From Mytilus galloprovincialis (Eukaryota; Mollusca; Bivalvia; Mytilida; Mytilidae): a stretch of DNA of 64,000 nt. The stretch is taken from contig NC_134839.1 of assembly GCF_965363235.1 (NCBI RefSeq), forward strand, positions 73,112,910-73,176,909, read 5' to 3'. A model generated the notes under the pieces. It ran no database searches. It was not told the DNA's origin and was given only the letters and a program-made list of their open reading frames with translations. The position numbers were made by a program, and so were the translations under genes. Positions 17,275 to 63,999 of this stretch are shown here, in pieces. Every line of letters starts with the position of its first letter. Position 1 is the stretch's first letter.

Positions 17275-20200
17275 CTACTCTAATTTACGTATTGTTACAA
17301 TAGGTTTGAAATTGCTTTTCTCTAAGACTTGTTCGTCTGAGTTTGGTTTGAATGTACTAATTCTCTGTAATGTTCTAGGATTGTTGCCTTGTGATGTTTC
17401 TGCTTTGTCAAATAACGATTTAATACTATGGCCTGCTCCGTAATGCTGCGACATAAACCTCAGGTTTTCGAAAGGTTGATTTTCCATTGGCCGATGCCTA
17501 AAACTAACACTCGCAAATTCTGGCGTACTGATATTCTGTCGCCCTTTTATGTTCCTTTTGTTACTGCTACTGGAGGCTGAAGTAAGTCCATCATTCGAGT
17601 CTTCTCGTTTTGTTACATCGTACCGAGTAAAGGAAAGATTCCTAGACATTTTTTTCATCTCTGTAGATAATCGTCTCGCAAGACTTTTTCTGTCTTTTCT
17701 TTCTCTTTTTATTCGTTGTTCCTGTGCCACCATATCAGCGGAATATCTATCATATTCAGATACTTCAACTATTTCAAAATCCTTTTCTTCTGGAATATGT
17801 TTCGCTTTCCTGTGAAAAGAAAGTTAAATACTAGTATACCTTAAGTCAAGTTAAGGAAATGTAATTGAAATCATTATTTCCGAAATTCATTATGATTGTC
17901 CGACTTGAAGACATTGCGGTAACATCAATAACTGCGTTTTTCACCTCTGATTTTATTAGTTTGTCTGGTCATTGCTTTTCTCTTATGAATTATTTACCAT
18001 TTTGTTATTCCGAGGTCTTGGTTGGATAGTTATCTCGTAGGCAATCAGATACCACCTTCGATTTGAAAATGAATGAAAAGTTATTCTCTAATAAATGACC
18101 TTTGTAATTGAAGTAAGCCTTTCTAATTTAACCTTCACCCGTACAGTTCAGACATTGAGACATCCAGAGTGAAGTTAATGCATTGGAAGCTTCAGGGATG
18201 TGGCTAGAATGAAACTTTGAAAAAGACAGGACAGGAGTTTTGGGTTTAAAAAAGGCATGGTGAGCAACTTTGAAAATAAATAAATTTAATTTAATAGAAC
18301 ACAAACCAGGACCGAATAGAGTGAAAAATAAAAAGGCAGGACAGAGATAATAACTTTAAAAAAAAATGCAGGACGCAATTTGTCATCCTAGCCACCCCTC
18401 CCCATAAAAATCAAATGGTAACTCCCTTATCGTCATTTTGGTCTCTGGTAGTCATTTTTATTTTGATAAAACTATAGAATTATAAATCAAATCGTTTAAT
18501 GATAAAAATAAAAAGATTATAGTGAAATGTTTTTAGGAGGAGTAGTGTCCATTACGGACAACAGAACAAGGATGTAAACACATACATCAAATATAGTCAA
18601 CAGAAATACAAATGGACGGTGAGACATTGTACATGTAAGAGGCTTAATAGTGATCTATAATCCTTTCCGTGTGGCATTGGGTAATCATATGTGTATTGAA
18701 TTATATAGTTGTCTTAAAAACGCATAGTTTTGAATTACCCACATTTCCACAATCTTTTGAAAATTACTTTCTTATTGGGTACTTTTTGTTCAACAAAGCT
18801 GTTCCTTGTAATTATATATTAGGTTTAGATAAATAAATTATTTTCTTTTATCTGTTGTAAACTTTGTTAGCTTTTTCTGTTTGTAAAAAAAACTAATGTT
18901 CTTTGAAATGAATAACAATACGATTTACTGTTCGGCTCTTTTTAATAAAATTTTTAAATCAAAGAAAAAAATGAAAATCTTATGTTGTGATAACGCTCTG
19001 AGGATCTTCAAGGGACACAAGATACGAGACATATAAATCATTAGTGAAAGGAAAATAATGAATTCGTTTTTAGCAGCCAGTATGGTTTAATTTTTTTTTT
19101 TAAAATCTAAGAAACATTGATAATGAATTATTCACTTGCAAGTTAATAATTCTTCCTCATTCAATCCGTATTCATGTGACAAATTTAACCCCTTAGCTAG
19201 AGGATTTACGCATGAATTATGCGTGTTTAGTTATTTAAAGGAAACATTGAAAATTAAACAAAGGTCAATTATTTGATTGAATGATTCGATCCAGAATAAC
19301 ATATTCTAATACAAATATAAACGATGTTTAACATTTATTTTTAACCTATGATACGATATTAAACAGACCTAGAAAAATTAAATTGCTCGAGTTCGCTATG
19401 TATTTATATCCATGTGTATGTATATATCGCTTAATATGACAAGAGGCAGTCTTCGGGATGAACTCGATAGTTAATGAGATGACTCTAGACTAAAATACAT
19501 TATTTAAAATAATATTATCAATCCCATACCTTCTCAGTTATAATCCTGGTACCTTTGATAACTATGCGTTAACAAGACTTTGTATTATATTGATATACGT
19601 TTAGTATGGTATTAATTAATTATGAAAATATGAGTCAAATCGGTCGATTTTGACAGCAAATGCTTAATTAATGTAAAAATGTATCTTTTTTAAAATTTTA
19701 AGCAGATATTTACGATGACCCATCCCTATACAAAACCATCTACAGAATAAAATACGTACCTGTTTTTCTTAATTACACAGAATGAGACAACGAATATGAT
19801 AAGAACAGTACCGACAAATCCGAGAATAGTAAACATTAGCCAGTCTGTAAATATAATCAAATCATTCTTATATTCTATCTTTATGTGTTCATATAACATT
19901 ATTATCATATTGTATATGTATGTGTATGTATGACCGACTATTTTCTTGTGCATTCACATTGTTGTATGGTTCTATGTATAAGGGTCAGCACTATTTGCCT
20001 TGTCTTTTTGACACATCATAATTACATCACTCATTATTTCTGAAACAGTTTTGTAAAATTTTGCACAAGGAAACTTTTAGAATCTTTGTTTTGAAAGCCG
20101 AATATGACGTTTCGTCCCCGAGGGTATCACCAGCCCAGTAGTCAGCACTTCAGTGCTGACATGAATATCAATTATCTTCATACATTTCCTGTTACAAAAC

Positions 20201-23200
20201 TTTGAATTTATTCGAAAAACTAAGGATTTTCTTATCCCCGAAATGGATCACTTTAGCCGTATTAGGCACAACTTTTTAGAATTTTGGGTTCTCAATGCCC
20301 TTCATCTTTGTACTTGTTTGGCTCTATTTTGATCTGATCGTCACTAATGAGTCTTAATGCCAGCCCATAATTAACTTGATTTATTTTAGATTTGTTTTTT
20401 CTCTTATATATTTCTTAACCTTCTTAGGTAACGACCTACTTCAAAAAGAGTGGGGTATCATTTTTTTCCAAGCAGATTTCCTATTTTTCTAATAGATTAC
20501 AATGTTAAATTTAAAATAAATATGATTATTGATAGCGTGAAATTTGTGAAATAATCTCACTTAGACAAAAAACATTTACCCCCCCCTTTTCTTGAAAGTT
20601 AAATGGTTGTTCCCGAAAGCGCTATTTATTTGTCTTCCTTTATATTGAAGTAATAAAAATACCTAAAGAAGCGATCTTCATTTGCAGAGGATCAGTTGTT
20701 AGTAACTGTGAGAAAGTAGTTGCCTCGAAAGTATTTCCATTGTCCTCTTCAGTTGTAAATTGGTTGGAAAATGTTGCTGCTTTGTCTCCCGTCGTAGTAA
20801 CTTGTTTGATAGTCGACAATATGGTTGGTATTACAGATGGTATAACATTATGTTGTGTAGTTGTGACTAGTTCCGTTGTTTCCTCTGATTCTGTATATTT
20901 TGTAATTATTTGGTTGCTTTCAGATGTCGTCGCACCTGTCTTTTCGGAAACAGTTATGTCAGTTGTTGAGTGTGTTGTCTGCTCCTGAACAGTTGTGACT
21001 TGATACTGTGTTTTGTGGTTACAAACATTGTTAGTACCTTCAGTCGGCACTAGAATAGAAATGACGTTTTGGTAAAGCTCGACGTTGGCTAACTTAACGT
21101 GTTTGATGCAAGATCTCTATAGGAAACATTTCATTGTTTTTATATATAATTCTTTAAAAACCCTCAGACAAAGAAGACTCTAAATTGTACTGACAGCTCT
21201 AAGGCTATTTGAAAATTATATTTAAATTATTGATTGAAATAGAAATATCTAATCGCAACAACTCATGCATTTATACTTTGATGAGAAGGGAAAGCTCAAA
21301 TCAAAGCAATACAAAATTGCATATAAAAATGCATTAACATGGGTTCATGTATTCTTTTTTTTCTAACCAAAAGTCTATCAATGTTTATGGTAAATAAAGG
21401 CTAATAACACTTTTTTCCAATTAGTTAATTCCTAAAATTGTAAAGACAATCATTGCTGAAACGTATACAATATTTATGAAAACGTTTTATGTCATTATTT
21501 CAGTTAAAAACAAGTGCATGCATGATATAAAGCCCCTTTTAGTTTCTTATATAATAATGTAACAAGCATGCCTTTTTATATAGATTACTTTACTGTCAGT
21601 ATTGGTTTTGGTCATTGTAGGGAGCTAAACGGTCAATTTACATGTGCCTATAATTGATTACATATTTGTCATTTGTTCTCTTTTGTAAAGTTGTCATAAG
21701 GAATCATACCACTTCTCTTTTTTTATATAGTCAGTGAAAGACAATCTTGATTAATTTTCTAGAGCTTCGATAACAAGGAATATCTAACCTATTTTAAAGA
21801 GAATCGATTCGCTTAAAATAATGTTTTTCAGCACCCAAACGTTTCATTGCACGACGTTAGGAGTTTTAATGCTACCTATTCATACTCTCAAACCTTTTTA
21901 CGATTAAAATGAATTTGTAATACAAAAAATATAAAATAAAAGTTTCTGATGTAGTCATTCATAAATGCTAAAGATTGTGTTCGCTCATATAATTCTGAGT
22001 TGTCAAAATGTTGAATTTATAACTTTGTTACTATTGTTTTAGGAATAATTTTTTGCAATATAAGCTTTTGAAAATACTGTGGATTCATTTATTTTCGTGG
22101 ATACCAATTTTCGTGGATTAAGAAAAACTTGCATATTCGTGGGTATTTAATTTCGTGGTTTTGCTGAAGTCTGCATACAAACCTATAGAAAAATTATCAT
22201 TCGTTGAATATTTAATTTCGTGGTTTGACTGTGCCCACGAAATCCACGAAAATTGGTATCCAACGAATAATAATGAATCCACAGTATACAAAAGATTAGA
22301 GTTTTGCTTTTGAAAAACATTATACCAAAATACAATGCAAGACAAACTGAGGGTCGACAGGTAATAAGTTTGTACTTATACTTCTAACATGGCCATGTAA
22401 TATAACATATTGGTAACTCATACCTTTGCATATAAAGGACAAACTGGTGTCACAGCCATCTGGACGAAGAGCGTAATATACGGAACTACTATAATGTAAA
22501 GATTGACAATTTCCTCCAGACATCGAATTGACTGTAATAGGTACATAAAGTATTAACCAATTATAAAATTAGATTACAACAGATATGGATGCACGAAACA
22601 AACAACAATTTTGTTAATTCGTGACCTTTTATTACTGACTATGCGGGGTGGATTTTTGTTCATTATGAAATTCCCCTTACGGTCATCTAGTTGTTCACTT
22701 CTATATGTCAGTTTGTCTCTGGTGGATAGTTGTCTCATAGGCAATCATACCACATATTCTTAGTTTTATATTAATCTAAAGTGTCGCCCTGACATCAGCT
22801 AATTCATCATTGGTATTTTATTTTCTGTAATTCAATGATTGAAATCCAATTTTATTGGATATAGGCATATGTGGTATGAGTGCCAATGAGACAACTTTCC
22901 ATCCATGTAATAATTTATAAAGTAAACCGTTATAGTTCAAGGTACGGCCTTCAATACGGAGCTTTTAAAATTGGCTCACACCGCAAGCTATAAAGGGCCC
23001 CAAATATTACTAGTGTAAAGACACTCAAACGCGAAAAACAACAGTCTAATCTATATAAAAAACGAAAATACAAGAAACATTTGTGAACCACATAAACAGA
23101 CGACAACCACTGAACATCAGATTCCTGACTTAGGACATGTGCAAACAATTACAGCGGGATTTAACGTTTTTAAACCTTTTCCCTTTTCTGATAATAGTAC

Positions 23201-26200
23201 AACATCACAACATAGAAAGACACACTATAACATATCAATTGGAATGGCTTAAATGTTTACTTTGTTCTTTTAGTTTATAAACCATCATGAATCGACCAAC
23301 TTGATAGCATCGTTAACCATACTATATGACTTTGTTTAAAGTGTAATACCACTATTGATTTCCCCTATTAGTCTTTGTGTTAAATTTGGCACTTTTCCAA
23401 AAAACGTGCAGAATTTTTCATTGTTTCAAATAAAGAAATACTTGGAATGAGTAAAGATTATCCTGTACTACAATAGACAACATTTCAATCCAAACTTCGA
23501 AAAATAAATAAAGACCAAGTAACATACATGCCTCAGTGGGAATTGTATGTAGGGTATGCAGATCCTGTTTCCAAAGACGTACCAATGTGTTGCTCATGGC
23601 AATAAATAATGCATTGAAAAGTCGTTAGTGATCATAAGCTGCATTTGGTGAAGTCGCAAAATCAATTAAATGAGACAGAGATTCTACACAGATATTTAAT
23701 AGCAGTGAATCAATTGATGATTGCGTTTGTAAAACTTTCGAATGGAGTTCTTTGACGTTACCATTAGGGAACCTTAGTTCATATCGGTTCCTCAAAGTGA
23801 CAGCTTTATTATCAAGGAAATGATACTACATAGAAGTGAAATTTGAAAGATTACACTATCTCTTTTGTCAAAAATTATATTCAATCGAACCTCTTCGTCA
23901 ATTCTTGGATGTAAGTCAATGTATGAAGCAAACATAGCTGTAATATGGCTTTTATTTTTCAAGTTTAATGGGATAGAAGTGTTCAATATATATCTAGACG
24001 TACATAATAAGATTAAAATTTGATGTGACGGCATGGGTACTTTTAAAAATTATCATCCTTTACTACAAACAAAAACAGCTGATCTACAAAATACACCATC
24101 TACTTGCCAGTATACATAATGTACAGTGTTACAACTCTAGATTAAGCCGACGAGGGAAGTCAGTTATTGACTAACGAAAACTTAATTGTTAAGAACCACT
24201 AGTCGGTCGAGTGGTCTAGAGAGCACGTTTGATACAGTCAATGCGGAATTGCTACGATATCACAGAAGCACAGATCAAATCTCGCTAGGAAAATAACAAA
24301 CATTTGCAGTAGAAATGTTTACAGATATGAGATTGTTGGGCTTTATCTGAGACGAAGTATAGTTATGTATATATATATATATGTCGTGTACAAGTTGAAA
24401 TTTTGTACATGTTATAATTTGTACATTGCTAAAATACAAGTTATAACATGTACAAAAGTACCTCGTACTGGTACTGGGTCGATGCAACTGCTGGTGGACG
24501 TTTCGTACCCCAAGGTATCACCAGCCCAGTATTCAGCACTTCGGTGTTGACATGAATATCAATTATGTGGTCATTTTTATAAATGTCCTGTTTACAAAAC
24601 TTTTAATTTTTCGAAAAACTAAGGATTTTCTTGTCCCAGGAATAGATTACCTTAGCCGTATTTGGCACAACTTTTTTGAATTGTGCATCCCCAATGATCT
24701 TCAACTTTGTACTTGTTTGGCTTTATAACTATTCTGATATAAGCGTCACTGATGAGTCTTATGTAAACGAAACGCGCGTCTGACGTACTAAATTATAATC
24801 CTGGTACTTTTGATAACTATTTATAACATGTACAAAATATTGCTTAAAAATGCATTTAACCAGTACAAAATCTGAAAATAATAATAAAGCCTGCTTACAC
24901 TGGCGATGCACAAAACCGTGCTCTCATGTCAATGATAGTTTACGCACTATCTCTCTCACACTCATATCACTCATTGGGAATCCAGACACAATTAAAATTG
25001 CATTTGCCAAAAGTTGAAGCTGGTTTCTACTCAAGTATCCCTTTATTTGTTCATCTTAAGATGTAATTTTATAGCCGCCATGTTCATTCACATTCATTAC
25101 TACCTCTTTTATGTTTCTTTCATTGTAGCTGCGACGTAAGAAACATATCCGATATCATTTATATAACAGATATTCCATAACGGTTAACCAACTCGTGATG
25201 GCGTCCGTACAATTTACGAAGTGATGATTTCAGATTCCCAATGCTTCACTGTTGGAGAGCTGAAAAGGGTCTTCAGTATCAGTATTATTGGATACAGAAC
25301 TTGCTTCAAATATTGCTTCTAAGTCGTCTTTTGTTTGAATACCAGGCGAGAATACCGAGTAATGTTTATTGACTACATGTGTTTTTTTAAAGCCTTTTAA
25401 ATTTAGTTATTATAAAAACTATTTATCTGGTCACCACATGTATCAAAAAGGAAACACAAACACATTAATGGACAATGACAAATAAATGATGAAAATACTA
25501 TTCAGGGTAATGACATGTGTTGTAATAATAGAAACATATTTTTACTTTCAAATTTTGTACAAGTTACAACCATTTTTAAGCAATATTTTGTACATTTTAT
25601 AACATGTATGAGGTACTTTTGTGCATGTTATAACTTGTTTTTTTTGCATTGCACAAATTATAACATGTACAAAATTGAACAAAATCTGCAACTTGTACAC
25701 GACATATATACTGCAAATACAAAATGTGATTTAATATTCAATAAACAAAATAAACGTGTATTTGTTTAATTTTATAGTTGTCTAATTGGAAATCATTCCA
25801 CATGCCCCGACTTTTATATTTATGGTATATTACTTTTTTTAAACAACCTTACCTACTCTATATGTGTCCATACTTCGGAATCCTCCACAGGTCTCTGCGC
25901 TGTTTCCTTGACAAACGTTGGAACATTCAGTGTTTGAATTAAAGGTTGTTGTGGATGAAAAGCACATACATGTCTTGCCCTAGAAAATTAATGCAAAGTC
26001 TAATTCAAAATAATTTCAAACTGGATAAATAAAATTATTATTACATAACCGGCGATATTGACGCTCACTGTTGGTAGTTTTTATTCCCCGAGGATTTCTC
26101 AGTAGTCAGTACTTCTGTGTTGACATCCATTATTATTGATATGGTCATGATTATAGTTAAACTGTTCACAAAACCTTGAAATACTCTGGCTTTCCAGGAA

Positions 26201-29200
26201 TACATTACCTTAGCTGTATAAGCATGACCTTTGGGGATGTTTGGTCCTCCGTGCTCTTCAACTTCGTACTTTATTTTGCCTTTTAAACTTTTTTAATTCA
26301 CTGATGATAGGTTTTTTTGTAGACTAAACGCGCATCTGCCGCAAATACAAAATTTCAATCATGGTATCTATTGTGAGTTTTTCACATGCAAACACCAATA
26401 TGTCAATCTAATAAATACAGTAATTTTTATTAGCTTTAAGTGAGTCTTCGCTTGCTAACTTTTTGTCTTCGTTATCAAACAATGCAGTTATATAGTTACA
26501 CATGATTTTATGCATCACTGCTAAAGCAATTATACAAACTTTTTAACTGTAGAAGACTCTATATAGTTCTTTACATCATTAGTTCTTTTGGGATATATTT
26601 GTCTCCTGGCAATCTTGCCATATCTCCTTATGTGTAAATGGGGGGAATTATGACATATCTAAACTCGTTATGTGAAGAAGGACGTCTGTTGCCATCGTAA
26701 AATGGAAGAAACAAATATTTTTATATTCATTACACTAAATAATCTAGTATACCTGTACTCCGAATAAAGAATATACACGACAGAACTCGAGGCATTCAAC
26801 CATCTGATTGTTATCTATCTTTGATTTGATGGACAATGCTAACTTGTCTTCTTTACAACCTATGAATGAAAAAGTAAACAGAAAGTATTACATAAATAAA
26901 TTTGTAATCGGCAAGCTGAAATAGGCTTATATTAAAACAAACAAATAACAAAAAAAAAACCGAACTCCCGGAAATTCCCAAATCAAAAGACAAAATCAAA
27001 ACCTCAAACACATTCAACGAATGGATAACAATTGTCATACAACCATTAGCCTTTCAAAAAGGGCTATAGTCGACTCTTAGCTGAGGACAATGGAAAGTGC
27101 TCTCGCTTTGTAGATTAATTCATTCACTAGAATAGCCACGTGCATCAATCAACAATTTTTACCACACACGTGAGGTCACACGTTTTGAAGTAGTATATAT
27201 CGTTTAACGTTGTTGTTTACGAAACTCCAGAAGATTCGGATATTTATAGATAAAAGTTACCTGTGTATCAATATATTATGACCAGGCAAAATCTAATTGC
27301 TAAAATAGAGAGGACAAATCCGATACTCTACGGGATTGAAGGACATTTACTAGGTTTGGATTGTCCTAACCAATCAATAAACTTTGATTATTCACGTCTC
27401 GTAATATCTTGCAATCAGGTAGCAAGAAAGATCCACGCACTAACTGTCTATCGTTCAATTCTTAATCTCGACTCCTAGGAGTCGATAATTATCGATTTTT
27501 CGAATGTAGAAAAGTTTTGATAAACCTGGTGTTATAGTTAGCTAAACCTCTAACTTGTATGACAGTCGGCATAAAATTCCATAATATTGACAACGACGTT
27601 ATGAGAACATAACAAACATACATAATACATGTACAAATGATAGAAATAAGGATACAGCCGTCAACTTTGTGTTATAATCTTAATCTCTATAAAAACAAAC
27701 AAATATGTCAACAATGAAACACAAAAAGGCATATAGACAAAGCACACTACATGACGCAAATATGAAAAATAAGAATAAAATATTACCATAATAGCACAAC
27801 TACAATTGGCAGATGTATAAGTACAAGCCATGCCAAATGGATACTACCAAAAAAAGAACTTTCTGCTCAGACACAAATGACGTTTTACAAGTCTGAGTAG
27901 CAGCTGCAAGCTCTTGAATATCGAATAAGTTGGGAAATGTAAAGAAGTTGGTATATCACTACTATTAAGGTGGGGGAAATTGATAGTTTTGAAATTTTAT
28001 CGTCGTGTTTGTCATAGAATATGCTATTGAGATGACCGCTAATGTTAAATTCGAGGTTCATGTAGAAAAAAAAGACAGAAAAAGCCGTCACGGTGTCTTT
28101 TATCTTTTTAATTTCAAGTTCTAGGGAATACTTTAATATGGAATCCAATTATAATAATTGTTAATGGAAAGAACATCATCAATATATCTAAATATGAAAG
28201 ATAGACAAGAAGAGGCGAACAGTTCGTTCCCGTATTCGATGGGCTTCTTAATGGAAATCTTTAGAAATTACCTGTAGGTCGGTATATCATCAATTTCATA
28301 AAACATTTGTTGTGTTTTGTGGTCTGTATCTTTCGGCTCTCTTTTATCCTGATTGGTAGATTATAGATATTGAAACCTGGACATTTTTTTCTTTTATCTT
28401 TTCGAGTATGTATGTGTGTTTTTGATATTTATAAATATAATAAGATGCGATATGATTACAAAATGAGATTACTCATTTTAAAGAAAAACCAAACAGCAAT
28501 GATGTGAATTACTGACAGACAATGTTCGTTCTTCAGCAGTTCAAAAAAACAATATCGTATAGTAAGCTGTAAAAAGACACTGGATAGCAAAATGAAAAAC
28601 TAACGGATCGCTTAAAATAAGAACATTTGATATGCAATATTGTGCATAATATATAAATTGTTTAAGACAAAAGTTACACAAATGTTGAAATAAATCAAGC
28701 CTACCTAGATATTCTGGCCACGGTTTTCCTAGCCATATTTTGGTATTTTGTATACTACATGATGTTATGAAGTTCAGGAGTTCTGGTCCATAAAGCAGTA
28801 AGTTACCAGTGAGAACGTGTGTACAATAATCAGAAGCCTTGTTCCAGCTTCTACTCTCATGTATGAAATACAGAGTCCCGGTACAACCTGGATAATTAAG
28901 ATTAATTTAATCAATTTCAGTAAGATTTTATAAACAGATGCGGATTTAGAAAAAAACATGTGCGCTAAACATTTTGACATATTTCTTGTTCATGTACATA
29001 TCATACAGTAATTTAGTCCTATAATATCTGAACTCGGGGGCATTATTTTCTATTTCCATTTCCTTTAACTGATTTTGCTCCTTTTTTTTTTGTTTTATTA
29101 TTATCAACAATGTACATCAGACAAAACATAAAAAAATGAAAATATCAGCATGAAAACGTTAAATAGTGAATATATAATGCGAAGGCATATACTAAAGGAC

Positions 29201-29742
29201 TAACCGTAATTACATGTATGTCTCTCTTTAATTTGTACTTTTGATTAATAAAATTTAAAAAAAAGAAAGAAAGAAAAAGATTGAAAATGAGAAGCTTGGA
29301 TTTTCCATCCAGCAAATGTTTTAGTTTTCAAAAATAATTAAGTAAATTCTTGAAATATATTATTACAATGTTCAATAGTAATAAACTGACACAAATTATA
29401 ATTTTAAATCTTGTTAATTCATGACTACAAATGCATTTATTTTTATTTCCATCAACGCAAGGCATGCAATTGTACACCAGGTTCTATTCCAAATTTGTTT
29501 TCTATGAACGTTTCCGTATTGAAGGTTATTACAATTTGTTCCCAAAAACTACTCAATGTACGCAATCTGTCAACTTGTACAAGGAACGATGCTTCGATCC
29601 CTAAAAGATGTTTGAATAGACGGAACAGAATTCCAGATAGTGTAAATAATTATTTTTCGAATTCGTGAAAAAACAAAAACAAATACATACAAAAATACTC
29701 ACCCGTTGTTAGAATTAAATAAAAAACTACAAATTTATACAT
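17275..29742 (-). CDS. Gene B: membrane receptor with WSC domain between two CTLD halves, mucin-like stalk and 177-residue tail (523 aa)
   Basis: Eight exons join without a phase conflict: 29703-29742 (signal), 28705-28887, 26753-26859, 25853-25979, 22424-22531, 20663-21049, 19760-19844, 17275-17809. Signal sequence MYKFVVFYLILTT. Exon 2 is a CTLD front half: GTLYFIHESRSWNKASDYC and KIWLG. Exons 3-4 form a WSC domain with all eight cysteines (ECLEFC, CMC, NVCQGNSAETCGG). Exon 5 is a CTLD back half: NCQSLHY and CDTSLSFICK. Exon 6 gives 129 Thr/Ser-rich residues, a probable O-glycosylated stalk. Exon 7 is the transmembrane helix (WLMFTILGFVGTVLIIFVVS then IKKN). Exon 8 is the tail: EVSEYDRYS, a basic Ser-rich part (SLARRLSTEMKKMSRNLS), no catalytic domain. 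WSC and CTLD domains bind carbohydrate in other proteins, so a cell-surface recognition role is likely. No transcript evidence; the 5' UTR is unknown. Confidence 0.82.
17810..19759. other. Gene B last intron
   Basis: AT-rich intron. A short family-B end ('ggatagttatctcgtaggca') lies near 18024, and a short family-C end ('ataatcctggtacctttgat') near 19541. Nothing else recognised. Confidence 0.45.
20095..20365 (+). repeat. Dispersed repeat family C, partial copy
   Basis: Begins 'ttcgtccccgagggtatcac' and 'cagcccagtagtcagcactt', continues with 'aaaaactaaggattttctta', ends 'cactaatgagtctta'. Lies in gene B's intron between stalk and transmembrane exons. Confidence 0.75.
22075..22286. mobile_element. 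212-bp MITE, TACTGTGGATTCATT inverted ends
   Basis: Left end 'tactgtggattcatttattt' and right end 'aataatgaatccacagta' are inverted copies; an inner block 'ccaattttcgtggatt' is also inverted near the right end, so almost the whole element folds into a hairpin. TA flanks both sides (CTGTGG inside TA), suggesting Tc1/mariner-type target choice. No coding content. Lies in gene B's intron just left of its CTLD back-half exon. Confidence 0.8.
22640..23160. repeat. Two family-B pieces, opposite orientation
   Basis: 22640-22770 on the plus strand ends 'tcataggcaatcataccaca'; 22865-23160 on the minus strand starts 'tatgtggtatgagtgccaat' and has 'ggtacggccttcaatacgga' and 'aagctataaagggccccaaa'. The second is a distinct subfamily also seen at 49030-49320 and 30120-30530. 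Confidence 0.6.
24195..24300 (+). mobile_element. SINE-like fragment
   Basis: 'gtcggtcgagtggtctagag' resembles a tRNA box A region, and 'agatcaaatctcgct' a weak box B about 65 bp later. No clear body or tail. Low certainty. Confidence 0.35.
24380..25712. mobile_element. Foldback element with TTGTACATGTTATAA arms and nested family-C copy
   Basis: The left arm (24380-24468, 'gtcgtgtacaagttgaaatt', 'ttgtacatgttataatttgt') is repeated inverted at the right end (25610-25712, 'aacttgtacacgacatatat'). Additional copies of the palindromic core 'ttataacatgtacaaa' lie near 24821 and 25660. A family-C copy (24470-24832) sits just inside the left arm. No coding content. Confidence 0.65.
24470..24832 (+). 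repeat. Dispersed repeat family C, full-length nested copy
   Basis: Runs from 'actgggtcgatgcaactgct' through 'aaggtatcaccagcccagta', 'cgaaacgcgcgtctgacgta', to 'aatcctggtacttttgataa'. Full block order of the family. Nested in the foldback element 24380-25712. Confidence 0.8.
25853..26859 (-). other. WSC module of gene B (two exons)
   Basis: Exons 26753-26859 (107 nt) and 25853-25979 (127 nt). The module enters in phase 1 and leaves in phase 1, with an internal phase-0 intron after FGVQ. The eight cysteines have the spacing expected of the WSC carbohydrate-binding family (C-x19-C-x3-C, then CxC, C-x3-C, then TCGG). It is a self-contained cassette between the CTLD-half exons 28705-28887 and 22424-22531. 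Confidence 0.85.
26075..26385 (+). repeat. Dispersed repeat family C copy
   Basis: Degraded copy: 'ttccccgaggatttctcagt', 'aatacattaccttagctgta', 'agactaaacgcgcatctgcc', ending 'tcatggtatctatt'. Located in the intron that splits gene B's WSC domain. Confidence 0.7.
26935..27610 (-). repeat. Family D copy split by a roughly 460-bp insertion
   Basis: The right-hand block ('cattcaacgaatggataaca', near 27007) and the next block ('ataaacctggtgttatagtt', 27519 onward) are adjacent in intact copies such as 32825-33090, but here are separated by about 460 bp (roughly 27042-27510). The insert has 'agtcgactct' near its left end and 'aggagtcgataa' near its right end, a weak inverted pair. Insert identity unknown. 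Confidence 0.5.
27611..28704. other. Gene B intron between CTLD front-half and WSC exons
   Basis: AT-rich; I see no exon encoding a second CTLD half here, which supports the nested WSC reading. A minus-strand open frame at 27885-28148 resembles no family I know. Confidence 0.4.
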
Positions 29743-39811: not shown

Positions 39812-42800
39812 TTAATACAAGTCGTCATCTAAAGACCCGTGCCTTTTTTGGTTGTTTCGAAACATCTTATTCTGCGATAAATCATTTTGAACGTGTTGAT
39901 TGGTATTATTGGTCATGCTATTGGTACGGTTTGTTTCTCCAGGTTTACGCAGTCCTACATAGGAACCATCTACATTTCCGTTCTGAAACCTTCGAGCATG
40001 TCGGAAATTATGATTTTCCTCCACGTTATTATTTGAATTTGATGGCTGATAAACTTCATCATAAGCTGGTTCCGGGACATGATTATCACTGTTGCTTGAC
40101 TTCCGGTTGTCCTTATTGTTCTTGTGAACAGCCGTATAGACAGGTTCTCTAGAAGGTTGTCTGTCAAGATCGACACCATCGCCTCCAAAAGCCACAATTG
40201 GTACAGGGTCACGAATCCCCAAGTCAACATTGTGGTAACCCGGTTGTTCTCTGAAACCGTTTATAAAGTCGTCATTGTTATCATGGTGTGTCATGTGAAT
40301 TTGGAGTCTATCTTCTTTTTGTCGTCTTTTCTTCCTTGAAGTACAACAAAGTGTATTTATATTAAAAACTTAATATTCTGCAATGTGCACGTAATTTGAT
40401 TTACCTAAAAAGTTAATTTTGTGTTTCATTTTTCATCCAAAACCAAAGCTGTAACGAAAATAAATGTCATTTGTTTGTTTGGTTGTGTGGTTTTTTTTTA
40501 TTGGTAGATGTAGTTTAGTTGTGTCATTGGCGTATTTTGCTACAGCTCCTTTTGTTCATGATATACTGTTACATGTATCATGGCTATTAGATACTATAAT
40601 GTATAATCATGATTTAAATCGAAGGGAATGAGGATGTGCGGCGATCATTTAGCAACGAAACAACAAATTCATCAGAACAGCAAACAATACACTTTCCTAC
40701 GAATAAGAAATTGTATTTGTCCTTAATTCGTGCATATATAGCTCATTAAGCATTAGATATTGTAAATAATGAGCAACATTAAAGATTGAAGCTTTCTCTT
40801 GTCAAAAGGCTTACATATTACTTAATAAACATTGATCCTGTAACCTTGCTCGGGTTATCTTGTTCGTAATTATATGCACACAATGTTTATAACGTCTGTA
40901 ATCTACTCTTGTTATATTACACAATGCTTACCTTAACTTATAGAACACAACAGCGAGGACAATTACAATGGCCAGAAATATGCATAACATTATAGCTATG
41001 ATAACACCTGAAAAATATCTTACTTCATGTACAACAATATACTATGATATTAAATCATTCTGTACATATTTGACATATTACAAAATATACTAGCATTTTA
41101 AAAATTATATCAAGTCTTAGATGCATGGTTTTTTTATTAGATGTTATTGGCTTTGAACTACAAAAATGTAGCTGTCAGTAACTTTTTGTTGTTCGGATGT
41201 ATAAGTACCCGAAAACGTCCACTCTGTGTTTTTGTTAGATGTATATTTCTATTTGTATTCATCTGATGAGTTAAGCCTTTTATAGCTGACTATGCAATAT
41301 GGGCCTTGTTGATTGTTGAAGTCCTTATGGTGACCAATAGCTGTCCTTTGGTCTCTTGTGAAGAGTTGTCTCATTGGCAAGCATACACCATCTTCTTTTT
41401 AAAATATAGCAATTCATATCAGCTTCCGCCAAAAAACTTCTAACGTATGTTTTTTTTTCATTTGAATCTAGCTAGTATTAGAAAAATGGCTATAGTCCTT
41501 AAAATATTGGTTCATAAAGTGCAAGGAGACTCCTATTTTTAACAAAAGAGGTTTTATATATATAAGAGTAGGCGCAATTGTACTATATATTTTTTGGGCG
41601 AAAGTGGTATCAAAACTAATGTCATAACTTGTTCAAGTAGTAAATAGTGTGCAAGCTTCTTTTGTTTTGGCAAAAATGAGACAAACACGTGACTTAACTT
41701 AAATAGTTTTTGTTATGTATATAAATCTGGAGTACTGTTCAAAACCATACAATCTAGCAACTGGGCATACCTAGACTTGGACCACTGTTAGCAACTAAAC
41801 TTTTAGTCTCAATATCTGCTACATTTGAGGAGGAATCGGGTATGTCCGTGGTCATACTGGACCCACTGCATTCTGTTCCCAATGTGTCGCCGACTATAAT
41901 AAATATATGATATTTTAAACGTATAACAAGTTTACAAATGCGAAAACTTACGTGTAATGTAACAATTGTTTGTAAAGATAAGCCTTCTTTTTCAAGGACA
42001 GGTGCTTTATTGTATTGCCCACCCTCTGGTTACATACAAACGCAACTTGCCTTTGTATTGCTGATACAGGAATAGGTGGTACACGGTGAGTTACATAATG
42101 TACCTTCTACTTATTTCACTAAGAACTTTTATTCATGTGATCATATTTTTAACTACAGAACTTTAAATTGACATCAACTGGACATTTTTTTTTATTTCAA
42201 AGTCATCATTCCAAATGGGCTTTATTTATCATTATTTTTTTTTTATTCATACTAAACTTATATCTCACATACTAAAAAGGACCTACACAAATCAGTTGAT
42301 AGAATAATGCTATGAACTAATAAAAACTCATAATCAACTTAGTTCTGTAAAAATATATTTGTAAGACCTTGGCAAATGAAGTTCCTTTTAATATTACAAT
42401 CTCCATTCAGCATTTTAAATGTATTAGCACCAAAGGCAAAGTACTGGCATTCAAACTGTGGTAAAGTAGACACTGAAACAGAAAAAAATCAAAATAGAGC
42501 ATTATACTAGTACTGTACATATTCATCATGTATAAAACAGTTAAACATCGCCATATTGCGGTTATAACCAACGAGTACGGTTCAAGAGAATATTTTTTCT
42601 GTATAATTGATGAATACTTCCGATGGTTGTTTTTTTCTGTATAATTGATGAATACTTCCGATGGTTGTTTTTTCTGTATAATTGATGAATACTTCCGATG
42701 GTTATTATTTCTGTATAATTGATGAATACTTCCGATGGTTGTTTTCTCTGTATAATTGATGAACACTTCCGATGGTTGTTTTTTCTGTATAATTGATGAA

Positions 42801-48800: not shown

Positions 48801-51800
48801 TTTATGGATTAACTTTTAACATATTAGTACATTGTATTTATCTTATTTAGTACCTTGTCTGTACACAGTCATATGATTGACACCACATTTTTCCTCTGAA
48901 TTTCCAGGACAATCTACAGCATCACAGTTATCTGCAGGCATGCCATTAACTAGATGATTATAGCAGTAGCACTTGTTTACCTAAAAATAGAAGAAGAAAA
49001 AATGTTTTACCGACTTTTCACCAACTTCTGTATTTGGTGAATTGGTATAAGAAGCTGTTTAAGTGCCAACGAGACAACTCACTATCCACGTCACAATTTG
49101 TAAAAGAAAACCATTTATATAAAGGTCTAAGTACGGTCTTCATCACGAGCCTTAATTCAGACCGAGCAGCATGCTATTATAAATAGCCCCTAAATGACTA
49201 CACGTGTAAAACCATTCAAACAGGGAAACAAACGGTAATCAATATAAAAAACGAGAAACACTTATGAACCACATCAACAAACGACAACTACTGAATATCA
49301 GGTTCCTGACTTAGAATGGTTTGAGAATTAAGTTTTTATTTGCATCAAATTCAGATGTAGTAAATCTACTTAAGAAATACAGACAATAAGCAAGATATCT
49401 AACAAAATTTCTAATGCACAAAGTGTTTGCTCGAATATGTTGTTGAAATCGTCATAGATCATTAAATAATAAGTCAGTCATCTAACAGCGAGAAATGAGC
49501 GTTGCCTTTGAAAAATAATAAAACTTTTTAATGTATTCGCGTTATTTGAAGATAGATATGAAATAACACATTCTGCAAATTTTTTAATAAACTTTAAAAT
49601 AAAAGGAAAATTTATTAAAGTGAACATTCAAATGATATTCCCCATATAAACCTGATGCAAAGTACTAGTAATTAAATTAGGTAACTACTCTTGGCTGTTT
49701 CTTCATAATTATATTACTGTCAATTTAAGAGAAATGCGAACGATACATGTACCAGAGGGACATTCAAACTCACAAATCCAATAAAAAAACCGATAACGCC
49801 ATTCCAAAAAAAAAAAAGAAAAAGACAAACAGACAAATAATAGCACACAAGACACAACATAGAAAACTAAAGACTTAAGCATCACTAACCCCGCCAAAAC
49901 TGGGGGTGATCATAGGTGCTCCGGAAGGATTATCAGATCATTTTCCACACGTGAAACCCGTCGTGTTGCTCATGTTACATGTATTACAAACCCGGTAAAT
50001 AGTCTAATAGAGTAGGTCATATTCGTGAAAAGGGAAGGGGATTGTTGTTACGACATAAGGAACATATTTGATATAAAATGATGCAATTTTATACTTTTTT
50101 GCGATGTATACGTGCAGTCTATTCGTTTGTACTTATTTGGTATAGTCAAAATTCCTTGAAACATCAAGAATCAAAGCTTCTTTTACAAAGTGCAATCTAT
50201 AGATAGATACCTGAACACCAATGAAGTCAAACGACTTATCTGAACAGAATGAAACACAGTTTGCTAAATGGTTGTTTGTCATTACTGTTTCCTTTGCTGC
50301 TGCTTTCACAAGAAAACAACCTGTAATATAAACAAGTATTCATGAAAACATACTGTCCTATAAACAATCAATCAACAAAACCATCTACAATCAACAAAAC
50401 GACACAAATAAAATTGAGAAAGGAAATGGGGAATGTGTCAAAGCGACAACAACCCGACCATAGAGCAGACAACAGCCGAAGGCCACCAATGGGTCTTCAA
50501 TGTAGCGAGAATTCCCGCACCCGTAGGTGTCCTTCAGCTGGTCCCTAAAATATGTATACTAGTACAGTGATAATGGACGTCATACTAAACTCCGAATTAT
50601 ACACAAGAAACTAAAATTAAAAATCATACAAGACGAACAAAGGCCAGATCGAGGCTCCTGACTTGGGACAGGCGCAAAATTGCGGCGGGGTTAAACAAGC
50701 ATGAAACCGTTCAAAATCTTTAGTCTAAAGATTACAATTAAAGTTAATCATAAGATGATATATTATCGTTTTGAAAAATATTTCGGCACAACAATAGATC
50801 TTGGTTGGTGTCAAATCTTTTTTTCAAAAATGAAACAATACAATCTGAAAATTTCTATAATCATCTTCCAACAAATCTTAATTGTCAGGGTAACTAGGAA
50901 TGCTATATATATGCATGGTGAAACTTAAGTAATATTACCAATTCAAAATTTAACTTAAGAATCTTCGAGGTACTTCTTGATTTCAAAAGTAGATGTGGTT
51001 ACTATTTTAAATATTAATAAGTCGTAAATACGATAAAGCTTTAGTACTAAACTTTAAAATTTCGAAATATAACTGCATATTCAGAATCTCTAGCTTTCAT
51101 AAGTAGTTGTACAGTTGTGAAGTTATTTTATGATAAGTTATTAGTAATATATATTGTCAAAACAGAAAAATTCTACCTACCATAGTTTTGAGACCATGGT
51201 TTATTAGTCAGGACTTCAGTGACAGAACAGAATCTAGCAGCATTTATAAATTCAGTGCCATAACTAAGCAGGACTCCACTTATACTTTCACAGTACAATT
51301 CTGCATCGTTTTTAGTTTCTTTTAGGTGGAATACTTTGATTGTACCAAACGTTCCTGGGAAAAAATCATATATACCCTTATTCAAATATGAAAAAAAACA
51401 GAGATTATTTTAGGGTTTATGTAAATGAGTCAGCAACATACCGACACAACCGATCAAGAGACATCTATAAGTCAGCACAGTCTCCAACCATAGAAAGGTT
51501 TTACACATTATATCAAGCTGCAAATCATCTTAAATTGATATAGAATTCAAAGAGAAACTATCAAAGATCGGTAATCAACTCAAAATACTCAAATGAATCC
51601 AGGATTGGTAGGAAACCAGCTTGAAATAACAAGTTAACAAAAGTTGTTTAGGGCATTATAAGACATGTAACTCTGAGGTCCCGTACTTGGTATCGGTTCA
51701 TTACTGTAACAATGTTAGATAGTTTTATTAGAACCCAACCATCCACCTTTTAAAATCAATATTTACACTGTCATATGACTGTTTACCATTAACAGTAATG

Positions 51801-53625
51801 TTATCTCAAACTCATGGATGACCTTCAATTGAACTATTAAATTGTTATTTGACTGTTCACATAAATGTTGTGAAAAATATTAATATTGAATATAATTAAG
51901 TAGAAATATTAAAATAAGGTAACAATGAAATGTTCGTGTATTTTCATGCATTGTTTTTAAGCTATATCTAAATATACTGATTTAAAACATAGATATATTT
52001 CTACTATATACATGGATATATTCCTGTGGGCATCTTTTATTAACAGATGTTTAATTTTATGAGCAGAATATGATTATAGACGTATGGTAAGAACAGCAAA
52101 ATATTTCTCATGATTAAAACTGCCTTGAAGGCTCTACAATATTTGTGTTTATTCTCTGGCTATACTGGTGTCATGCATTCATTTGACCATGTTGTTGATA
52201 TAAAGTCTGAACTGCAAACTAACAAACCCTCTGCATAAGAATTTTCCTAACAAACATATCATATTTGCAATACAGAGAAACATGCTTTACATATATGATT
52301 AATCTCCAGTTTAACAACAACAAAAACCAGCTAAAACTATCTCAAATGTACAAAGTAAACAATATTTCATCGTCATGTATTATTTAATTTCTCTATAAAA
52401 CGGTAAATATCATGGTTTCTCGTTGTTCATTCAGTTTTTCATGGTTATTTGCATCATCATCATCATTTGGTCTCTCTCTATTTAGTTGATAGTTGTCTCA
52501 ATACCTGTTATAGCACATCTGCTTATTTTTTTGTACTGTTAAGTCCGATACCTATATATTATGTTTACTAATCATGTCGCTTTTCAGACGTCTGTTATAT
52601 GTGCAAGTGTATTTAGTATTGCTTTGAAGATTATGCAATTGAGTTACAACAAAAGAACAGGATAACATTAATTTTGCTTGCTTTGCCTTAAGAGTCTCCG
52701 GATAAGAGGACCTTTTCATTAGTGTTTTTCAAAGACTTTTTCTTTATAAAAACGATACAAATTAGCAAAGCTATATACCTTATTACACTAATATATATGT
52801 TCATCTATATCATGTTTATGTACGCAAAATGAATATACATAAATGTATAAGTACCCGGCCACTTCCACTTGGTATTTTTTCCATCTGATGATTTAAGCCT
52901 TTCTCAACTGGTTTTTATAGTTCGTTAGTATGTTGTACTGTTATACATTGTACCAGGTTAGGGAGGTTGGGGTTCCGCTAACATGTTTAAACCCGCCACA
53001 TTATTTATGTATGTGCCTGTCCAAAATCAGGAGCCTGTAATTCAGTGGTTATCGCTTGTTTATGTGTTACATATTTGTTTTTCGTTAATTTTTTTTACAT
53101 AAATAAGGCCGTTAGTTTTCTCGTTTGAATTGTTTTACATTGTCTTATCGGGGCCTTTTCATAGCTGACTATGCGGTATGGGCTTTGCTCATTGTTAAAG
53201 GCCGTACGGTGACCTAAAGATGTTAATTGAGGTGTCAATTTGGTCTCTTGTGGAGAGTTGTCGCTTTGGAAAACATACCACATATTCTTTTTTATATTTA
53301 CATTGTGTAACAAGGCTTTTTAATAGAGTTTCTGTATAATGATGACATCATAGACATATGATGATGATATATGTAGCCCCATAATTATGTTTTAATAAAT
53401 GGCAAATATTTTAGAAACCACACTACTTAGTGTAAATAACGATGTTATATATACATACATGTATAATTAATAAAATATTTTTTTATCCTTTGTTACCTCC
53501 TGGTTTGAACGTTTAAAAATTATGGTTACTATGCACGATTGGATCTTTAAAAGATATATATTCAATATAAAGCGAATTAACTTACCCCTTGTAAGACAGC
53601 ATAATAATATCACAATTTTCAACAT
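39812..53625 (-). CDS. Gene C: membrane receptor with WSC domain between two CTLD halves and tyrosine-motif tail (425 aa)
   Basis: Eight exons join in phase: 53586-53625 (signal), 51181-51354, 50211-50320, 48854-48980, 42368-42472, 41771-41893, 40932-41007, 39812-40334. Signal MLKIVILLCCLTRG (an in-frame ATG 15 codons upstream is possible). The CTLD front half is degenerate: GTIKVFHL, DAELYC, no WxxA. The WSC domain has eight cysteines (NCVSFC, CYC, NCDAVDCPGNSEEKCG). CTLD back half: ECQYF and CNIKRNFIC. Short 41-residue Ser/Thr stalk with one Cys. Helix VIIAIMLCIFLAIVIVLAVV then FYKL and a basic KKRRQK. The 173-residue tail holds EPVYTAV, EPAYDEVY and SYVGL and ends DDDLY, possible SH2-docking tyrosines. 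The intron 42473-48853 contains a minisatellite and a 4-kb giant inverted repeat. One donor (GTCTTA after the CTLD back half) is weak. Same architecture as genes B and D. Confidence 0.82.
41130..41400 (+). repeat. Dispersed repeat family B copy
   Basis: From 'gttattggctttgaactaca' to 'tcattggcaagcatacacca', with an internal deletion compared with 5040-5650. In gene C's intron between transmembrane and stalk exons. Confidence 0.7.
42590..43495 (+). repeat. Minisatellite, about 23 copies of a 36-38-bp unit
   Basis: Unit approximately 'tgtataattgatgaatactt' followed by 'ccgatggttgttttttc'; I count about 23 units. Variation is mostly in the T-run length and a GTTATT/GTTTTT switch. In the last third three units carry an extra 'cgatgaatacttc' or similar partial duplication, an emerging higher-order form. 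Most units show almost no other change, pointing to recent expansion. It ends about 120 bp before gene C's CTLD back-half exon (42368-42472) in transcript sense. Confidence 0.95.
43690..43930 (+). mobile_element. tRNA-derived SINE-like element
   Basis: Head with 'ggtggtcgagcggtcagtct' (box A-like) and 'ggttgtgagttcgaatccgg' (box B), then body 'ttctctccggcttcctccac', ending 'attaatcaccaatcgaccaa'. Not a functional tRNA: the acceptor ends do not pair. Related to the copy at 2700-2960. It sits between the minisatellite and the giant inverted repeat. Confidence 0.75.
44160..44515. repeat. Degenerate 21-bp tandem repeat, left arm
   Basis: About 15 units of the form 'ttatgttcagtagtNNNNaca' in phase of 21 bp, so each unit is 7 codons and both strands stay largely open. 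On the minus strand the units read TEHN-type heptapeptides; on the plus strand LCSVVxx. Confidence 0.8.
44628..44831 (+). CDS. Short SAM-like open frame in the giant inverted repeat, left arm
   Basis: 67 codons: starts MEEMEAVLNRCGLRSQVGIF, then KITPDSFCKLSLQDVAYLG and DRRKIMELRIACVHF. The pattern (a short helix, 'L..F....I....L..L....L..LG..D...I..LR') resembles a SAM-type helical bundle; similar N-terminal segments occur in proteins of invertebrate transposons, as I recall. The right arm (47256-47462, minus strand) carries a related but divergent version. It ends in a stop soon after the helical region, so if it was once part of a transposase, that part is missing. Expression unlikely. Confidence 0.4.
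   Translation: MEEMEAVLNRCGLRSQVGIFHKKKITPDSFCKLSLQDVAYLGRIDRRKIMELRIACVHFSSNILNEQ
45815..46330 (+). repeat. Two-copy tandem duplication (about 265 bp) rich in TCCGTT
   Basis: The block with 'gtgaagacgtgcccttactc' and 'aagatcgattatgaat' occurs at about 45852 and 46117, each followed by runs of 'catccgttt', 'ccgttatacgtcc' and 'agaagtccgtttcacattcg'. After 46330 the inverse motif (AACGGA) takes over until about 46460. Confidence 0.8.
46531..47150. mobile_element. 620-bp piggyBac-like MITE flanked by TTAA
   Basis: Ends 'gggcatacgatacagtt' and its inverse 'aactgtatcgtatgccc', each bordered by TTAA (46527-46530 and 47151-47154), the target site of piggyBac-type transposons. No transposase; contents AT-rich. 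Inserted in the loop of the giant inverted repeat, hence younger than it. Confidence 0.85.
47620..48025. repeat. Degenerate 21-bp tandem repeat, right arm
   Basis: Inverted copy of the array at 44160-44515, with units 'actactgaacataatgtaat' on the plus strand reading TTEHNVI. Several neighbouring units (47890-47960) are nearly identical, so the array has expanded differently in the two arms. Confidence 0.8.
48854..50320 (-). other. WSC module of gene C (two exons)
   Basis: Exons 50211-50320 (110 nt) and 48854-48980 (127 nt), phases 1-0-1 as in gene B. Eight cysteines conserved; the usual TCGG is KCGV here. The second exon has exactly the same length as in genes B and D. Confidence 0.83.
49030..49320 (-). 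repeat. Dispersed repeat family B, subfamily 2
   Basis: Contains 'aagtgccaacgagacaactc', 'aggtctaagtacggtcttca' and 'tatcaggttcctgacttaga'. In the intron splitting gene C's WSC domain. Confidence 0.6.
50420..50700 (-). repeat. Dispersed repeat with 'caaagcgacaacaacccgac'
   Basis: Runs from 'gaaatggggaatgtgtcaaa' through 'caccaatgggtcttcaatgt' to 'cttgggacaggcgcaaaatt'. A repeat type I recall from mussel genomes; its right end shares the 'cctgacttgggaca' block with family B. In gene C's intron between CTLD front half and WSC. Confidence 0.5.
52840..53300 (+). repeat. Dispersed repeat family B, near full-length
   Basis: 'aagtacccggccacttccac', 'accaggttagggaggttggg', 'gtttaaacccgccacattat', 'gactatgcggtatgggcttt', ending 'ggaaaacataccacatattc'. 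Lies in gene C's first intron. Confidence 0.8.
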
Positions 53626-63700: not shown

Positions 63701-63999
63701 ATTTACGCAGAAGCCCTCAAAGGCCTGCTTATTAGTGTATCTTACGATTTCCTTTTCCTCTGTTGAAGGTAGTACGCTTAAGAATTACATTTAAAAGAAT
63801 TTAGAGACAAACGACATGAATGAAATGAGTTCTAAACGGGAGTTTCATGTGTTAAACTAAAGTGTGGCTTACCTTTTCTGTACACGATCATATGGCTTAT
63901 ACCACATTGTTCAAAGCTATTTCCAGGACAATTAACGGCATCACAATTTGCAGGAACACCAATTCCAGATAGGGATTCATAACACAGGCACATGTCTGC
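57771..63999 (-). CDS. Gene D: WSC/CTLD receptor, 3' part (5' exons beyond right edge), apparently almost tail-less
   Basis: Exons: 63873-63999 (second half of WSC; 64000 would be the last base of the acceptor AG), 63393-63500 (CTLD back half), 60073-60192 (stalk), 59448-59523 (transmembrane), and probably 57771-57786. WSC part: CLCYESLSGIG, NCDAVNCPGNSFEQCG, MIVYRK. CTLD back half: KSDCQYVKF, CNINRGFVCKE. The stalk has about 40 residues, with one Cys near its start as in gene C. Helix LILGISLVVLVVVVIVLVII then CFRM. The exon lengths 127 and 76 equal those of gene C, its closest relative here. The only in-phase acceptor I find downstream adds RKVVL and a stop, a four- to five-residue tail, against 173-177 residues in B and C. 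A longer tail exon could have been missed. Signal, CTLD front half and first WSC exon should lie right of 64000. Confidence 0.7.
57787..59447. other. Gene D last intron
   Basis: No alternative tail exon in the required phase was found. A plus-strand tract at about 58480-58560 ('tccttgactttcaaatattc') resembles common mussel repeat sequence. Open frames around 58261-58479 (minus) and 58824-59066 (minus) match nothing I know. Confidence 0.4.
60534..62565 (+). mobile_element. Decayed Tc1/mariner-type transposon, about 2.0 kb, TA target site
   Basis: Terminal inverted repeats 'cacctcgccaaaagttaagc' and inverse, each flanked by TA (60532-60533 and 62566-62567). Transposase traces on the plus strand at about 60780-61255: SDESRFLL-like, HMRVWRP, then FMDDNARPHRERIV, the DNA-x-PH block of Tc1 transposases. 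The frame is interrupted many times and the 3' part is replaced by AT-rich sequence, so it cannot be autonomous. It carries a nested GC-rich repeat at 61259-61413. Longer than a normal Tc1 (about 1.6 kb), because of that insertion and others. Confidence 0.85.
61259..61413. mobile_element. GC-rich 155-bp foldback repeat nested in the Tc1-like element
   Basis: Ends 'ggcggatccag' and 'ctggatccgcc' are perfect inverses. Long G- and C-runs inside ('ggggggggcccgggcccccc', 'agggccccccccttttaggt'). Such elements are frequent in bivalve DNA, as I recall. It shares the GCGGATCCAGG-type end with 37334-38343. Confidence 0.8.
63873..63999 (-). other. WSC module of gene D, second exon
   Basis: 127-nt exon, phase 0 to 1, identical in length to the matching exons of genes B and C. 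Five of the eight WSC cysteines are here (CLC, NC, NC, QC). The first exon would be past the right edge. Confidence 0.78.

Follow-up and report, generated by a model that had tools for sequence, protein, structure and literature searches.

A window of 64 kb from Mytilus galloprovincialis (C2:73112910-73176909 of the 1.385-Gb assembly) contains, on its minus strand, a gene in which the exons for a WSC domain lie between those for the two halves of a C-type lectin domain (CTLD). This gene, gene B, encodes in order a signal peptide, the front part of the CTLD, the WSC domain in two exons, the back part of the CTLD, a Thr-rich stalk, a transmembrane (TM) segment and a cytoplasmic tail. Its spliced product is 523 residues long, with every intron bounded by GT and AG. 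The head of the protein is made up of four exons: the CTLD front at 28705..28887 (183 nt, phase 1-1), which runs from WNKASDYC to KIWLGKPWPEYL, WSC exon 1 at 26753..26859 (107 nt, phase 1-0), WSC exon 2 at 25853..25979 (127 nt, phase 0-1) and the CTLD back at 22424..22531 (108 nt, phase 1-1), which contains NCQSL, GCD and FICK. All four are flanked by AG and GT. The WSC is encoded as a cassette of two exons, phase 1 at either end, with a CTLD half on each side. A first-pass annotation of this DNA had given the coordinates, order and phases of these exons exactly.

Upstream of the head, the start codon and signal peptide of gene B (MYKFVVFYLILTTG) are at 29703..29742, leaving in phase 1; signal peptides and TM segments were assigned by eye throughout. 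Downstream are the Ser/Thr-rich stalk at 20663..21049, in which 43 of the 129 residues are serine or threonine, the TM exon with its hydrophobic stretch at 19760..19844 and the tail at 17275..17809, of which 172 of the 178 residues are identical in M. trossulus. Between the signal peptide and the CTLD front there is also an open phase 1-1 candidate exon, at 29478-29600 on the same strand, which is possibly unused or alternative. It was rejected as a coding exon of gene B, being skipped in the M. trossulus protein P0003, and with it omitted splicing reproduced the 523-residue protein that had been annotated.

Gene C, also on the minus strand of the window, has the same architecture from the signal peptide through to the tail. 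The signal exon (MLKIVILLCCLTRG, which compares with the database proteins P0006 and P0007) is at 53586..53625, the CTLD front at 51181..51354, the two WSC exons at 50211..50320 and 48854..48980 and the CTLD back at 42368..42472, followed by a stalk at 41771..41893 (14 of 41 residues serine or threonine), a TM exon with a hydrophobic stretch at 40932..41007 and the tail at 39812..40334. The tail carries the tyrosine motifs YHNV, VYTAV, AYDEVY and YVGL, with E-P-x-Y-x-x-V motifs repeated along it, unlike the tail of gene B, where four tyrosines are found without this motif set and RRLS and RNLS stretches are present. Judged from sequence, one head family is joined to different tails. The heads themselves are only 25-34% identical per part between the two genes (front 21/61, WSC 26/78, back 9/36), and this low identity suggests that the WSC nest probably predates the duplication that gave rise to B and C. 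The long intron of gene C also contains two copies of a T-E-H-N type repeat in opposite orientations, at 44151-44393 on the minus strand and at approximately 47687-48055 on the plus strand, the latter copy containing stops.

The exon chain of gene B is backed by database proteins. Five matched it (P0001-P0005), with 99% identity over 98% of its length to an M. edulis protein. P0001 and P0002 from M. edulis and P0003 from M. trossulus (LOC134705064) all have the order front, WSC, back, stalk, TM and tail; the first two agree with gene B from the CTLD front onward and P0003 also includes the signal peptide (MYKFVVFYLFLTTG), which is one residue different from that of gene B. In P0005 from M. coruscus the head is preceded by what appears to be a gene C tail, suggesting that the order of C then B has been kept in that species, and P0004 from M. 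californianus begins at the end of the WSC. For gene C, the protein shares 96% identity over the whole query with P0006 (M. trossulus LOC134707071) and 87% with P0007 (M. californianus LOC127730352); both have the same domain order, and 170 of 174 residues of the tail are identical in M. trossulus. The three protein database searches gave matches from Mytilus only, using a method that needs shared five-residue words; as the profile search missed P0006 and P0007 from its own query alignment, this does not establish absence from other organisms. These proteins also bear on whether the nested form is just one splice form, with skipping of both WSC exons giving a CTLD for which the WSC is an optional loop. 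The two WSC exons sum to 234 nt in gene B and 237 nt in gene C, both multiples of three, and are in phase 1 at both ends, as such skipping would need. However, six of the seven database proteins hold the CTLD front and all six of these have the WSC, with P0004 starting at the WSC end, and this explanation seems quite improbable.

While the first-pass annotation was right in describing a nest in gene B, this is not a single oddity, and gene C, part of gene D and further copies had gone unmentioned. WSC exon 2 of gene D is at the very end of the window (63873..63999) with its CTLD back at 63393..63500, and beyond the window, in coordinates extended past its end, are the front at 65164-65337 and WSC exon 1 at 64451-64560, all on the minus strand. 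Querying the same genome with the heads, and then reading the flanks and the named loci, brought the number of full-head copies to seven (B, C, D, E, F, G and I). They occupy three places on two contigs: E adjoins D, the pair F and G is found at C2:69.10-69.13 Mb, and C11:20.0 Mb carries I. The count of seven excludes three partial loci. Locus H has the front, WSC exon 2 and the back with no recognisable WSC exon 1; locus J (C2:83106060, plus strand) has both WSC exons and a front with an in-frame stop, with the back not found, and is possibly a pseudogene; and locus c3 has a WSC exon alone in the 10-kb stretch read. For D, E, F, G and I the head exons were modelled, with the addition of a likely stalk and TM segment for D, and it would seem likely that D to I also carry a stalk, TM segment and tail. 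No head copy lacking the WSC was seen among the named loci read. Locus I on C11 was considered as such a copy and was rejected, both of its WSC exons being present. WSC exons are also abundant elsewhere, with at least 129 matches in the genome at E ≤ 0.001 (150 scored of 370 candidates), many of them clustered on C3, C5, C9 and C13, and the WSC looks to be widely expanded in this mussel.

In all seven full-head copies the order is front, WSC exon 1, WSC exon 2 and back, with exon lengths modulo 3 of 0, 2, 1 and 0. The splice sites of D, E, F, G and I were first chosen with the phase constrained. On rescoring across all phases the chosen site came top for 19 of the 20 acceptors and all 20 donors, with ties counted as agreement; the sole exception was the acceptor of WSC exon 2 in G. 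This same order and phasing in seven genes at three loci argues strongly against the nest being an artefact of the gene model, either through exons of neighbouring genes being wrongly chained or through an unseen exon that completes the CTLD. Such an artefact would be favoured by the length of the introns (1.8 and 3.3 kb) and by the possibility that the database models are themselves predictions. However, when the two gene B introns were scanned for a missing CTLD exon, none of the 13 phase 1-1 candidates with a passable acceptor (22-75 residues; 2 and 11 in the respective introns) was CTLD-like, consistent with the annotation, which had reported no second CTLD half there. Removing the acceptor filter gave 39 candidates (11 and 28), and none of the three among them with both a tryptophan and a cysteine was CTLD-like. 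As controls for the scan, the back and front of gene B were recovered with a donor threshold and the back of gene C was missed; without the threshold both the back and the front of gene C were recovered. An artefact is therefore close to refuted.

The joined WSC exons of gene B score 36 bits against the Pfam WSC family (PF01822), above the gathering cut-off of 27.8 bits, which is also passed by those of C, G and I. For the whole gene B head the best match in the PDB, where profile matches were counted at E ≤ 10, is Kremen-1 (E 4.8e-4). The eight cysteines of the WSC are invariant in seven of seven genes, and four of the seven spacings between them in gene B equal those of yeast Wsc1, using the Wsc1 positions given in the available text of PMC9024836. 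According to that text, the WSC of Wsc1 adopts a PAN/Apple fold with the strand order β1-β5-β3-β4-β2. With the first strand beside the last, the ends of the domain should lie close together, as is needed of a nested domain, and nesting should be sterically easy. The same text describes no apparent pocket for a glycan or a metal in this domain, so that sugar binding by the mussel WSC is not a given.

The position of the WSC within the CTLD can be gauged from a canonical QPD-type CTLD exon that is located between genes B and C, at approximately 36035-36242 on the plus strand (DWDPGQPDN...NCLRIW...FRYICE), and for which the best PDB match is mincle (E 3.2e-7). In this exon there are 36 residues between WLG and NC. 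In gene B the same interval holds 14 host residues, seven on each side of the WSC, together with the approximately 78 residues of the WSC itself, so that by this yardstick about 22 host residues have been lost, including the stretch where sugar-binding CTLDs have EPN/QPD. For comparison with known structures the CTLD front and back were joined with the WSC excised, and a profile was made from the joined halves of the seven full-head copies and locus H. In its alignments this eight-head profile passes over around 20 residues of the PDB chains directly after WIGL and picks up again at KPW. As KPW is a few residues short of the WSC, the insertion point on the fold is uncertain by some residues. 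The weak matches to the Pfam Lectin_C family (PF00059) similarly cover positions 2 to 45-55 with the fronts of B, G, H and I and positions 68 or 75 to 106 with the backs of D and E, leaving out the middle part. Both results support the earlier placement of the junction in the region from WIGL to the long loop, and it would appear that a divergent CTLD has a complete WSC domain in its loop region. The further proposal that the WSC was inserted by exon shuffling goes beyond this: we infer both the insertion and its direction, as no copy lacking the WSC was seen. Nor is the suggestion of a compound carbohydrate-recognition head borne out. The EPN/QPD and WND motifs of the Ca-dependent sugar-binding CTLDs are found in none of the eight heads, and a carbohydrate-recognition role is unproven given the absence of EPN/QPD; in the window's canonical CTLD, QPD is present and WND absent.

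The evidence that the flanking halves derive from one CTLD comes mainly from profile searches, a check that the annotation had proposed. The eight-head profile gave 97 matches in the PDB, and among the 60 listed 59 are CTLD or CTLD-like, the other being an antibody light chain. In this tally we take intimin, 1wk1 and a chain labelled TNFalpha to be CTLD-like; the last of these aligns like tetranectin. The best E value is 2e-6 when summed over domains, with single-domain matches starting at 1e-4 and aligned through both halves; for example, residues 9-97 of the profile align in one stretch over the join to residues 17-126 of echicetin A (E=1e-4). A profile of the joined halves of B and C alone gave 24 matches, all CTLDs, some of which we presume to be so by name, with a best E value of 1.2e-4, and with the fronts of B and C only, all 15 matches were to CTLD proteins. 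The signatures expected of a CTLD are visible in both parts: W/Y..A..YC..(G)G.LL in the fronts, with the W-x-G strand in B, F, G, I and H, and C...C...F/Y-I/V/L-C in the backs. The four CTLD cysteines (the helix-1 cysteine, that of NC, the one following it and the last; C22, C148, C166 and C174 in the alignment) are invariant in seven of seven genes. The backs were also scored against a hidden Markov model of the CTLD C-terminus built from six CTLD pieces, from which lithostathine, itself selected with the profile, was left out. B, C and D scored 10.2, 9.8 and 11.3 bits, and of 5000 shuffles of each exon only 4, 2 and 1, respectively, reached the real score, or 14, 28 and 18 with the cysteines fixed. 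For three WSC exons, used as a negative control, 2584-4226 of 5000 did so. Taken together, these matches show the joined halves to be homologous to a CTLD.

A number of observations weigh against the halves forming an intact CTLD around a WSC. None of the sequences tested reached the Lectin_C cut-off of 22.6 bits: the joined heads of H and B score 19.9 and 19.0 bits, those of D, E, G and I 13-15 bits, and C and F do not match, while intact B and C and five orthologues gave no Lectin_C match either. On the WSC side, F falls just short of its cut-off at 27.3 bits and E has no match. When the backs alone were searched against the PDB only 5 of 14 matches were CTLDs and the unrelated ones were best, and the top three matches of the single joined sequence of gene B were unrelated repeat proteins. 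Some shuffles outscore the real backs, reaching up to 19.5 bits. The WIGL tryptophan is absent in C and D. An extra front cysteine, C57 in gene B, is invariant in all seven paralogues, H being the exception, and a canonical CTLD offers no partner for it; together with a stalk cysteine found in B, C and D it permits other pairings, so that disulfides across the two halves are not forced. AlphaFold models of full-length orthologues of B and C, from six-sequence alignments, have a mean predicted local distance difference test score (pLDDT) of only 28.7 and 34.2 and are unusable. Finally, in the comparison of gene B with M. coruscus P0005 the WSC is better kept (72/78) than the front (48/61) or the back (30/36), and in that of gene C with M. 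californianus conservation is lowest for the back (26/35, as against 66/79 for the WSC).

Low Lectin_C scores, the lost tryptophan, uneven conservation and unusable models allow for the WSC being the sole working domain, with flanks that are CTLD-derived remnants, or cysteine-rich spacers, and no longer make up one fold. The comparison with M. trossulus, however, shows the front and back to be kept as well as the WSC, both for gene B (front 54/61, WSC 70/78, back 33/36) and for gene C (54/58, 74/79 and 34/35), and the four CTLD cysteines have been retained over seven diverged paralogues. On balance it seems unlikely that the flanks are remnants. We favour instead, with a probability of roughly two in three, gene B being a member of a family in which a complete eight-cysteine WSC substitutes for most of the loop between β2 (WIGL) and the NC strand of one divergent CTLD.

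With a signal peptide, a compound head, a stalk, one TM segment and a conserved tail, B and C have the anatomy of a receptor. They are predicted to be single-pass type I membrane proteins and most likely act as receptors. In such a receptor the classical long-range disulfide, from C35 of the front to the last cysteine, C187, would bring the two CTLD halves together as one scaffold, and from its ligand-binding edge the WSC would project as a rigid 'domain-as-loop'. The Ser/Thr-rich stalk would raise the head from the cell, and the head might then bind a microbial or self surface ligand, either glycan or protein, mainly through the WSC. Binding could be relayed to the conserved tail, that of gene C having several tyrosine motifs. 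The fold, the disulfide pairing, the nature of the ligand and the signalling are all proposed here from sequence.

Compared with other CTLD proteins (PF00059), the mussel heads share the front and back signatures and have CTLDs as their best profile matches, but they lack most of the loop and EPN/QPD, have the WSC instead and fall below the Pfam cut-off. The complete eight-cysteine WSC is shared with yeast Wsc1 and vertebrate Kremen. Wsc1 consists of a WSC, a Ser/Thr stalk, one TM segment and a tail, a layout that genes B and C have in common with it, and Kremen has the order Kringle-WSC-CUB; we know of no CTLD around the WSC in either. Pfam gave no kringle or CUB match in B, C and the five orthologues, which does not fit a Kremen. 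In the same proteins the WSC is the only domain above the cut-off, and B and C each have one hydrophobic TM exon, which does not fit polycystin-1 with its PKD repeats and many TM segments.

A C-type lectin domain and a WSC domain are both present in hPKD1 (PMC1934368, PMC9672506), and both are reported to bind Wnts (PMC9672506). The available text of these papers makes no mention of nesting. In polycystin-1, as in the sea urchin REJ proteins, the two are separate domains within a very large multi-pass protein, whereas gene B encodes a single-pass protein of 523 residues with its WSC enclosed by the CTLD. In the accessible parts of a bivalve survey the WSC is listed as one of the domains that occur together with CTL domains, again without mention of nesting (PMC10140915), and the main text of a survey of domain insertions names neither CTLD nor WSC (PMC13114784). 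A mussel transcriptome table includes a 'WSC domain-containing protein 2', which from the portion available may or may not belong to this family (PMC4581086). The first-pass annotation was aware of no described family with this nesting, and none was found among the matches listed from the open-licence PMC literature (WSC with C-type lectin, mollusc or mussel, and CTLD insertions). The seven Mytilus database proteins are labelled with a WSC in six cases, P0004 having none, and with a CTLD in none, so that a survey based on Pfam would probably miss their CTLD. The mussel genes appear to be a new arrangement of known domains and no new kind of system.

Few recognition scaffolds are used as widely in animals as the CTLD, whose variability is generally placed in its loops. 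A broader reading, for which the chances appear about even, is that in this family the CTLD acts as a frame on which a whole domain is displayed: a cassette event in the distant past would have swapped the variable loop for a WSC, with later duplication into a diverging family of receptors, now seven full heads and three partial loci, in which one head design is combined with different tails. If this is true, the split host domain, missed by domain scans, would explain why these proteins are listed in databases only as 'WSC domain' proteins, and the use of a whole second recognition domain as a loop would be a further route to receptor diversity.

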